Shown here in pieces: positions 3,450-63,977 of a stretch of 64,000 bases of DNA. The notes below the pieces were generated by a model. That model worked only from the letters and a program-made list of their open reading frames with translations, searched no databases and was not told where the DNA came from. Made by a program: the position numbers and the translations under genes. This DNA comes from Tetradesmus obliquus (Eukaryota > Chlorophyta > Chlorophyceae > Sphaeropleales > Scenedesmaceae): the NCBI GenBank assembly GCA_030272155.1, contig CP126194.1:3091501-3155500 (forward strand), read 5' to 3'. The number at the start of each line of letters is the position of its first letter. The first letter of the stretch is position 1.

Positions 3450-3910
3450 GCCGCCCGCCTCAGGCTTCACACTCCCCAACACAAGGCTGCGGCCCACCAG
3501 GAAGAAGCTCAGCAAATTGCGCAGCTCTGATACAGTACACGAGCTTTGACAGATCAGTACAGCAGCCGTCTACAGCACGGTTGGCACTATTACCGCCCAC
3601 CAGTCGCTGCCTGTAGCTCACTAGACCACCAACAACCTCTCTTTTGCCTCACCACGCCTCAAAGTACTTGAAGCCAGCCTCAGGGTTAGCTGCCAGCAGC
3701 ATCGTCCCCCTAAGCTGGCTGCGCGCACACGCCAGGCTGCTGGCCACCAGGAGGAAGCTCAGCACGCTGCGCAGCTCTGATACAGTACAGGAGCTTTGAC
3801 GGAACAGTACAGCAGCCATCTACAGCACGGTTGGCACACACAACTTCCACAGCCCACCCAGTTGTTGCCTGTAGCTCACACTTCTCCTGGACCACCAACA
3901 ACCTCTACCT
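3450..3910. repeat. Two decayed copies of the terminal exon of the adjacent minus-strand gene
   Basis: The segment reading CACCAGGAAGAAGCTCAGCA near 3497 recurs near 3747 and, in the intact exon, near 4013. The copy at about 3657-3785 also repeats the sequence around the stop codon and the AACCCTGAGGCTGG coding region (minus strand), and both copies share about 90 bases downstream (GCTCTGATACAGTACA..GCACGGTTGGCAC). The period is about 250 bases. These are tandem duplicates of the gene's 3' end lying beyond its stop codon, with scattered substitutions. Confidence 0.8.
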
Positions 3911-3914
3911 TGCC

Positions 3915-61500: not shown

Positions 61501-63977
61501 CAGGTGGGGAGGGATGGGGAAGCAGCTGCTACGCGCCTGTCCGCGTCTGTGTGGTGCATTGGTCTGTGGCATTGTCAGCATGCATATGATCCTTGCATGC
61601 ATGCCGTGCAAGGCAAAAACCTGTTTCGGCACTTGAAGAAGGTGACGGGAACTGCTTGTTTCGACCCTCTCGTGCCACTCAGTCACACATCAGTTGTTTA
61701 TCACCAGACAGCTGTATCTCGCGCTCTCAACAGGGCATGATGCTGAAACTGGAAGCAGTGTACTGCCGCACACATTGTGTTACAGCTGCCTGACAACGCT
61801 GCTGCCTGCCTGCGCTTCTGGCTGCCTGCCTGCCTGCCTGCCTGCCTGCCTGCCTGCGCTGCCTGCGCTGCCTCCTCCTTGCAGTACATGATGACTTGAA
61901 GCGCTTCGTGCTATCGTACACCGTGCATCACAACTCGCTGACAGTTGTGTCTGCCTGCCTGCCTGCCGTGCCTCCTCCCTGCAGTACATGGTGCTGGACT
62001 TGAAGCGCTTTGTGCCGCGCAAGCAGCTGCAGGAGGGGCTGCTGTGGGTGGCTGAGCAGCTGCCAGGAGTGGTGGAGGCGGCTGACATGACACAGGTGCG
62101 GTGCCTGGACAGTTATTGTTACATCATTATTTGCAACATGCACCGCAGGTGCTGTTGTGTGAGCAGCGTTGTTGTCATTGTAGTAAGCAGTGTACTTTGC
62201 GGTCTGTGTTGGACTGGTGCATGCACAAACAACAATGTTGGTGTGACTGGTGTTTGCTGCGATGCCGCATGCACTGTTGCTCAGTCAGCTGTCTCCTGCC
62301 CAGCAGCATGGTTGTGTGATGCGCTGCTGCTTGTGACGCTGCTGCGGCATGCATTGCAGGTGTTGGCTCGGGGCTACTGGCCATCCTACAACGTGGCATT
62401 CTTCCCCAACATTTATGAGAAGGCCGGTGAGTGTTCGCCGCACATACAAGTGGAGGCTTATATCCTGCAGCTGTACAGCCATAGCGGCTGCACGTTCTGA
62501 TGCACTCCTGACTCACCCGTCTGTTGCAGATGTGCTGCCGTGCTGCTTGCCAGTGTCACCCACGTCTCAGCTGAGCCAGGCGGCCCTGACGCTGCTGCTG
62601 CTGCTGCTGCTGCTGCTGGTTTGCCATGTTCTTGCCGTGCCCAGGCTACCCCAGCCTCATTGATGCAGCTCAGGGCAAGGGCCCACAGTATGGCGACCCT
62701 GCTCGATGGCTGATGTACCAGGTGAGGCGCGGGCAACAACACATGTTGATTGAATTGGCAGGTGAATCCAGTATTGGTCGGTAAAACGCAGCATGTGCCT
62801 GTCAATTTCACCCCTCATGGCTCAAGTGAAGCCCACGGCCGCAGCTAGGGCTGTGTGGCTGCGGACGTGCTATTGGAGAGGCCTCCCTACTTGCCACCTG
62901 TGCAACAGGCACACCAGTGGATGTCGAGGTGTTGTTTGACTTGCGTATGCCCAAGATGGCGGCTGAAGATATCAACATGTGCTGCATGCTGTGCAGGTGT
63001 CGCCGCGTGCCAACATTTTCAGGCGTGATCAGGGGAACGTGCACGACCTGGAGCACCTGAAGCACCTCATGCGATATAACGACTTCCAAAATGACGACCT
63101 GTCAAACGGCCAGCCGGTGGCCTCTGTGTGCTCGCGTGGCGACCTGGCTAAGACGGGCGCCATTCCAAAGGGCTGCTATGATACCAAGGTGAGTTTTGCT
63201 GCTGCTGCTGCTGCTGTTGCTGCTGCTGCTGCTGCTGTTCTGCAGTGTGGCTTTTTGCAATATTGCTCTGCCAATAAACTGTAGTGGTGCACGTATTGTA
63301 GGGGAAGTTGTGCTATGCGGCAGGGATTCCCCCACCTCCACTGCTCGCACTGGGTGTGCTGCTGTGCTTGCTTCAAAATGAGATAGGTCGATTGCTGTGT
63401 TGTTGGTGCGTTGTTTGATGGCCAACGCCAACTGCTGCTGCTCCTGCTGCTGCTGCTGCTGCTGCTGCAGGTGTCCAGCTACAGCATGGCGCTTGCCATG
63501 GAGAGTGAGGTGGTGGGCGGGCCCACAGCGCAGGGCCAGCCCGCATTCGAGTGGGGGGACAAGTGGGACGGCTTCGCGCACAGGGGCATGCCCAACCGGT
63601 GAGCAGCGCAGCATTGCAGCCGTAGCTATGTGCATCGGGATGGGGTGTGTCAAGTTAAATGCGTCAAGTCACTGAGCAGCTGCTCATGGCGCAGCAGTCG
63701 AGGCTTGCAAGTCGTGTTGCGCATTACTCATGGAGAGATGGTTGAGGAGCGTCACTACCATCACATGTGAACTGCTTGCTCACCGTTTGTCTTGCGGCTG
63801 CTTGCTTGCAGGTATGACTTCAGGTTTGAGAAGCAGTCTGCTGCAGACCTGTTGCTGCCAGGAGTGGAGTGCGTAGCTGGCAAGCAGCAGCAGCAGCAGC
63901 AGCAGCAGCAGCAGGGCTCAATCCTGGTGGCAGGCAGTGCAGGGAGCGCAGGGACTGCTGCACTGCAGGAGATGTGA
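58593..63977 (+). CDS. Phospholipase B-like (PLBD/laminal-ancestor family) secretory hydrolase
   Basis: Ntn-hydrolase-fold protein of lysosome-like compartments; the family hydrolyses acyl or amide bonds in lipids, but the natural substrate is often unclear. Thirteen exons: 58593-58758, 58999-59221, 59442-59647, 59981-60082, 60328-60452, 60905-61048, 61381-61503, 61985-62095, 62360-62426, 62645-62721, 62997-63188, 63471-63598, 63812-63977; 609 residues. A signal peptide (GAFVALFAFFVIS) starts the protein. The nucleophile region reads GKCSALIKVTADLGDLLFGH, placing the catalytic Cys at about residue 235, where the family self-cleaves. Other family blocks: QLVVLETTNHIYNFSI, GTYNNQYMVLDLKRF, RGYWPSYNVAFFPNIY, RANIFRRDQGNVHDLE, MRYNDFQNDDLSNG and NRYDFRF. 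The C-terminus has a poly-Gln run. Introns 5, 6 and 7 hold exon-edge copies. Confidence 0.95.
60764..60806 (+). repeat. Upstream copy of the start of phospholipase exon 6
   Basis: CCAGGTGGCTGGTGGCGTGG and CCGCCCAGGGCCTG corresponds to the acceptor and first codons (VSGGVAAQGL) of the exon at 60905, about 136 bases away. Confidence 0.82.
61138..61192 (+). repeat. Downstream copy of the 3' end of phospholipase exon 6
   Basis: GTGCTGGAAACCACCAACCA and CATCTACAACTTCAGCATAC repeats LETTNHIYNFSILE 139 bases past the original. The donor GGTGCGC of the original has become GATGCGC, so the copy cannot be used as a donor. Confidence 0.9.
61818..61915 (+). repeat. (CCTG)n run and copy of the start of phospholipase exon 8
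   Basis: A CCTG tetranucleotide run (about 61820-61860) is followed by CTTGCAGTACATGATGACTT and GAAGCGCTTCGTG, a copy of the acceptor and start of the exon at 61985; a shorter CCTG run also precedes the real acceptor, so the duplication included both. Confidence 0.85.

Follow-up and report, generated by a model that had tools for sequence, protein, structure and literature searches.

Small tandem duplications within genes have been described in several systems that resemble the one reported here. In the potato RdRp gene the duplicate takes in the 3' portion of an intron, the 5' portion of the exon after it and the splice signals of both, and the one event made a new intron (PMC4974935). The AGGT model (Hellsten 2011, per PMC3443670 and PMC4974935) likewise calls upon a small intragenic tandem duplication, of exonic AGGT, that is neutralised by splicing; the internal gene duplications of Gao and Lynch (2009, per PMC4974935) are intragenic and include intron sequence; and breaks with complementary overhangs, arising there from paired nicks, leave short direct duplications in cis (PMC8355091). 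We examined a 64-kb stretch, hereafter the window, of contig CP126194.1 of the green alga Tetradesmus obliquus (positions 3,091,501 to 3,155,500; genome of 104.66 Mb in 17 contigs), where copies of exon edges, with the acceptor or donor already present there and in many cases with part of the intron, lie singly or in arrays within the adjoining introns of unrelated genes. The alga differs from the potato gene in its implied loci, which number in the tens of thousands, stand on both donor and acceptor sides and often form arrays, with no new intron in the one gene compared; from the AGGT model in that the units cover an existing junction and no intron gain was seen; from the internal gene duplications in that the copies are mostly partial-exon decoys, not added coding exons; and from the overhang breaks in its narrow unit size and in the spacers of its two-copy loci, which are mostly not recognisable in the outer flank. 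Exon-edge arrays in an alga were not described in the titles and abstract openings among the matches listed for the open-licence PMC literature.

Self-blastn of the window yielded 20 local direct-repeat loci, 18 of them at E<=1e-6 and two more (45871 and 46947) at E<=1e-4, whereas no cluster arose in any of five dinucleotide-shuffled versions of the window. Eighteen loci were assigned to an exon edge, four of these by eye (26045, 27640, 41728 and 60999), the two left without an assignment being those at 3484 and 4357; the splice junction of a gene model fell inside the matching stretch at 14 of the 20. The smallest offsets between copies were 90-150 bases, once 250. Both the intron-located exon-edge copies in unrelated genes and the unit of 90-150 bases, as claimed by a prior sequence-only reading of this DNA, are therefore borne out. 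A CAG-rich match at 30662 was left out of the 20 loci and was counted among the 21 window clusters of the unit-size tally. Window genes have a median exon of 98 and a median intron of 242 bases. Pfam searches of ten exons (four without a family) supported the phosphorylase, the phospholipase B and the NHL repeat in the PAM-like gene; two exons of the oligopeptidase-like gene tested against Pfam gave no family. The HEGGH motif of the latter gene is presumably typical of M3 peptidases.

For a wider sample, twenty 10-kb stretches were taken at fixed positions on all 17 contigs, with offsets up to 320 considered; one stretch (L017), holding a 3.7-kb tandem block, was excluded from cluster counts, leaving 19. 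Clusters were present in 11 of the 19, and the window and 19 stretches together held 81 clusters in 254 kb; 74 of these lay in predicted genes, and in 60 the match took in a predicted junction; extrapolation from these 254 kb gives approximately 33,000 clusters genome-wide. The recurrent process that the sequence-only reading had proposed, which lengthens introns and leaves decoy splice sites, is thus seen well beyond the window. Counts per stretch were more uneven than chance (chi-square 55.7, 18 degrees of freedom): all eight stretches on C1-C3, C7 and C17 were free of unit-size repeats, the window and the eleven positive stretches lying on other contigs. Neither GC at third codon positions, intron length nor coding score separated copy-bearing from copy-free stretches by eye. 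Two protease-family stretches, chosen for another purpose, showed by eye one copy (L047) and three copies of one edge (L048); an exon of a gene on C3 matched PDB 1fc7, "Photosystem II D1 protease", with 88 of 88 residues identical.

A phosphorylase paralogue on the same contig as the window (G000:C4:4493042-4501952) was free of local repeats over 8.9 kb. It matches 14 of the 19 window phosphorylase exons and is without two of the window introns, neither of which bears copies, and the copy-bearing introns, judged in this one gene by the spacing of exon matches, have counterparts in the paralogue. For this reason the likeness to AGGT-based intron gain, suggested earlier, fails for the phosphorylase. 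A separate feature at 13945-14053 does resemble the AGGT idea: a 26-base unit with CACAG|GTGAGG stands in about four copies at a predicted exon end, placing AG|GT sites in a row. The paralogous pair at 14365-15900 and 19514-21237 (phosphodiesterase-like by eye; one exon tested, no Pfam family) had no exon-edge copies in the window self-blastn.

The smallest offset was scored in 86 clusters, of which 68 fell at 80-170 bases, 1 at 171-215, 9 at 216-280, 6 above 280 and 2 below 80. As random units of uniform length containing one junction place 18% at 80-170, the unit size is a property of the process and not of gene structure. In the two-fold class (216-280) the spacer scored against the edge above shuffles in six of seven tested, an eighth having no spacer, and a decayed middle copy is possible there. 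Since the gene finder still models some decoys as small exons, exon-size cut-offs were applied: at least 60 bases for the counts of edge polarity and junction overlap, and at least 75 bases for the 81-copy frameshift set and the omega sets used below. Across the window and 19 stretches, 31 of 277 acceptor edges had a copy within 600 bases upstream and 16 had one downstream; for 280 donor edges the numbers were 41 downstream and 14 upstream. Acceptor-side copies upstream and donor-side copies downstream are what the window alone had suggested, and that polarity holds. Approximately one exon edge in eight (72/557) has a decoy on the intron side, with 30 on the wrong side; exon middles had a copy upstream in 3 and downstream in 6 of 97.

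A copy spanning the exon-intron junction beside the original, as in a junction-crossing tandem duplication, was found in 49 of the 68 clusters counted in predicted genes, compared with 33.0+-3.8 at random placement (maximum 44 in 1000 trials). This excess, about 1.5-fold, is modest. Given the median exon and intron lengths of the window genes (98 and 242 bases), a unit of this length would take in a junction in about half of all random placements. Purging of duplications in exons and faster fading in introns could account for it, and hence no junction-specific process is needed; of the junction-specific process first proposed, the excess over random placement stands and strict specificity is weakened. 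Plain tandem duplication in cis, of about 125 bases, followed by neutral decay and with no allelic source, would make exon edges merely the places where a duplication is tolerated and detectable, and agrees with 33 of the 49 overlaps being expected by chance and with the many multi-copy arrays that repeat exon and intron parts jointly. We consider it a real possibility, although a less likely one than the explanation favoured below.

The anatomy of the copies was studied in those 27 of the 42 two-copy loci that had a called junction (L005 1-1200 was dropped here and downstream), 25 of the 27 showing the expected polarity. The piece in common comprised 50 exon bases and 8 intron bases (medians), and the copies stood 66 bases apart in the median, so that the make-up of the unit described earlier is kept in its junction-spanning and qualified in that two-copy loci share mainly exon. 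Full head-to-tail repetition of the unit was seen to differing degrees: of 38 pairs of adjoining inner introns within arrays 26 were homologous, and the outermost flank matched a spacer in 9 of 20 arrays, but at two-copy loci the spacer matched the flank in only 2 of 20. The arrays thus appear to grow by duplication of spacer plus edge, and the founders are either old or were made otherwise. One of the 27 two-copy loci has a stop codon at its edge and no splice site: in stretch L006 (5402-5589) the last coding bases and the stop codon are copied just downstream, in the presumed 3' UTR, the similarity stopping near the stop.

We also asked how spacers compare with introns, in a set of 27 in which L011 2163 (wrong-strand) was set by hand, L013 7925 (wrong-strand) was left out, L011 591, window 60999 and L006 3229 were added by hand, and one pair was lost for length. 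Twelve of the 27 spacers were closer to the cognate intron than to any non-cognate intron. An introner, i.e., a mobile intron-like element of about 65 bases duplicating tens of target bases, would give the X-spacer-X appearance of two-copy loci, in which the spacer is not clearly shared; the 12 spacers that keep similarity to their cognate intron are the reason for which we set insertion with a long target duplication low. Similar elements at unrelated loci, as expected of an introner family, were not found within the window, where at E<=1e-6 the matches between distant loci were confined to a single pair of paralogous genes and a short inverted one, and we judge this origin extremely unlikely.

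The present state of the copies was assessed in 44 pairs, from which two wrong-strand loci, pairs of unexpected polarity, offsets above 200 and exons below 70 were excluded. The decoy dinucleotide was GT or AG in 36 of the 44, the alignments being biased toward such pairs; offsets modulo 3 (0/1/2) were 14/11/19. Copies are chiefly partial exons, with a few nearly covering a whole short exon, and 17 of 81 carry a net frameshift. Differences between copy and exon at codon positions 1/2/3 numbered 46/33/114, and those between decoys 86/108/140. The first of these biases suggested a present coding function, which is countered by the net frameshifts and random offsets; because of these, and because most copies are fragmentary, we take them not to be coding units now. 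The copies seem, from their sequence, to be non-functional and ignored by splicing. Selection for alternative splice sites or exons would be in keeping with the intact dinucleotides and with the excess of synonymous changes described below, which is found between decoys too, but not with the offsets, the frameshifts and the mostly partial exons, and the phosphorylase paralogue does without the copies; we hold it to be very improbable. The offsets and frameshifts argue equally against the earlier suggestion that copies seed alternative exons. Nor do the copies look like mutually exclusive or tandem exon duplications, in which a whole exon with both splice sites is repeated in frame. One region stands apart. 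At 10504-11009 a GC donor closes the copy that is continuous with the coding sequence upstream, and the two copies downstream have GT preceded by GTGCAG or CTGCAG; in the gene model the exon stops at 10614 and both of these copies are mini-exons. This is the window's strongest candidate for the actual use of a copy.

In the pooled sample, copy and true exon differed more by synonymous changes than would be expected of neutral decoys. The omega (dN/dS) sets comprised 78 pairs at 40 edges, three of the 81 copies (offsets 27-33, zero differences) having been dropped. For 20 two-copy pairs dS was 0.28 and dN 0.049, with omega 0.18 (bootstrap 0.09-0.31; 1.96 and 1.20 in the wrong frames); a neutral simulation using the intron substitution spectrum, with a neutral decoy and a constrained exon, gave 0.33-0.72, and 0 of 300 trials were as low as 0.18. 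Over all edges with one random decoy each (40 pairs), omega was 0.22 compared with 0.33-0.62 simulated (0 of 400 as low), and for decoy-decoy pairs, which are not independent of one another, 0.45 compared with 0.63-1.01 (0 of 150 as low). These two comparisons count against plain duplication in cis. Sorted by intron homology, true-decoy omega was 0.41 (0.26-0.65) for homologous, 0.20 for intermediate and 0.18 for unrelated introns, and the first of these values fits a neutral decoy, as duplication in cis would have it. In the window genes, all 26 pairs together gave 0.27 (P 0.0075). Pooling the pairs thus gives a clear synonymous excess, which not every subset shows; its simplest reading hints that some founders may for a while have been genuine exons of another allele.

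Two haplotypes are expected to show synonymous-rich differences and unrelated introns, and an assembly artefact, in which the assembler of a collapsed diploid switches haplotype so that the two overlap out of step at conserved exon edges, would be one way of obtaining them in a single contig. Assemblies of two strains of the species came to 208 Mb and 109 Mb, the first almost twice the second (PMC5552973, PMC5255914); we infer that diploidy lies behind this difference, PMC5552973 itself not saying diploid, and the difference speaks also for the allelic source proposed below. A related Scenedesmus was described as likely diploid with its alleles separated (PMC7955037). The eight repeat-free stretches, which share none of their contigs with the window or the eleven positive stretches, also suit an artefact. 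One switch, however, cannot make arrays in which as many as five decoys diverge by degrees and have frameshifts of their own; nine phosphorylase loci, all near one unit size, would have to be explained in this way; and there is no N in the window. We think an artefact quite improbable.

The explanation that we favour, to which we would give about an even chance, is one of recurrent short break-repair duplications that are tolerated by splicing, some founders perhaps being allelic. Segments of about 80-170 bases would duplicate repeatedly within genes, probably through fill-in and joining of nearby opposite-strand breaks or some similar staggered lesion; paired nicks yield small tandem duplications in the system of PMC8355091 and, by analogy, are a plausible source. 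A duplication entirely in an exon would be purged, and one entirely in an intron would soon fade. One that covers a junction would survive, because splicing, by exon definition, would use the copy contiguous with the exon body, the orphan leaving with the intron. Once two near-identical edges were in place, the unit of spacer plus edge could multiply by ordinary tandem duplication into arrays, and the copies, having no function of their own, would decay. The least secure step is that a share of the founders may stem from a diverged homologous allele, joined in instead of being copied in cis, which we propose because of the synonymous excess over neutral decoys. The sequence itself shows the repeats, their polarity and unit size, the spacer structure, the frameshifts and, with the pairs pooled, that excess, and all of these favour the scheme; the break-repair step, exon definition and the allelic source are inferred. 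In a stronger and only tentative version, which we think somewhat doubtful, introns serve as a fossil store: breaks in introns would be repaired by invasion of the diverged homologous chromosome at the exon edge, the closest conserved sequence, with the ends joined about 125 bases out of register, and decoys would record past heterozygosity since each event leaves the other allele's exon piece and splice site in the intron.

A number of results weigh against this explanation. Two fully constrained copies simulate at 0.04-0.11, below the observed 0.18. Window genes with one decoy per edge gave omega 0.35, which cannot be told from neutral (P 0.18), and the outermost array decoys, in expectation nearest the founder, gave 0.34 (0.21-0.54), so that neither rejects plain duplication in cis. 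Decoy-decoy omega has no trend with intron homology, being 0.35 where the introns are homologous, 0.74 where they are intermediate and 0.32 where they are unrelated, and the single D1-protease decoy, read by eye, has 3 synonymous and 4 other changes. The scheme accounts neither for the unit size nor for the 8 of 19 copy-free stretches and the copy-free paralogue. The gene models are mostly ab initio from this analysis, only the 14 phosphorylase exons noted above having been matched by a paralogue. Most surprising here are that the unit size is intrinsic and that the source may be allelic. If one edge in eight holds, the genome offers a natural test of how the spliceosome chooses between a true site and a near-identical one about 125 bases away; the same genome informs how introns lengthen and provides sized duplication scars for the study of break repair. 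If the allelic reading is true, alleles since lost would be on record in single genomes, and, under the fossil-store version, the number of decoys in a gene would tell how long that gene has been heterozygous.

The assigned loci of the window, with their strands, are as follows. On the + strand, an acceptor array of the oligopeptidase-like gene at 7003..7699 has five decoys upstream of exon 7636-7813 (unit lengths 123-130), and a second acceptor array at 9521..10180 has four upstream of exon 10116-10289 (spacing 112-135); these two, and two phosphorylase donor arrays, can be seen in the sequence as printed. Between them, at 8267..8490, is a donor-side copy of exon 8144-8337 (offset 148; 94.7% over 76 bases), with a spacer of 72 bases that is not clearly shared. 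A donor-side array follows at 10626..11009 (offsets 230 and 94), and a donor-side copy of exon 11449-11639 at 11586..11754 (offset 110). Two further + strand acceptor arrays, set by eye, have two decoys each: 26045..26368 at the NHL exon of the PAM-like gene (period 125-128) and 27640..27922 in the PAM-like gene (period 111). The phospholipase B gene, also on the + strand, has a donor-side copy at 60999..61204 (offset 137; exon end hand-set at 61048) and an acceptor-side copy of exon 61985-62095 at 61847..62015 (offset 101).

All phosphorylase loci are on the - strand. Donor arrays lie at 39347..39947 (exon 39886-40071; four decoys counted, period about 110) and 40196..40516 (exon 40465-40640; two decoys, period 132), and an acceptor array at 40991..41461 (exon 40887-41037) has three decoys spaced 150/121/148, with a 271-base dimer. 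Acceptor-side copies are found at 41728..41893 (offset 121; by eye), 43437..43596 (exon 43395-43471; offset 118; 97.6% over 42 bases), 45107..45264 (exon 45019-45150; offset 108) and 46947..47081 (exon 46865-46968; offset 105, 30 bases). Exon 46003-46170 is copied on both sides, with a donor-side copy at 45871..46054 (offset 134) and an acceptor-side copy at 46135..46305 (offset 129). The loci with no exon edge assigned, for which no strand is given, are a direct repeat at 3484..4042 with an offset of 250, about twice the usual unit (309 columns, 82.5%), and two copies at 4357..4513 with an offset of 90, from blastn.

Other repeats were met along the way. Two in the window are outside the locus counts: a 52-base minisatellite at 1-1093 (21 copies, 94% match), and a run of 139 ATG triplets at 17475-17891 (CAT on the other strand; 100% matches). 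In stretch L017, the 3.7-kb self-matching block (1-3959) has an offset of 274, is about 95% identical and overlaps predicted coding exons.

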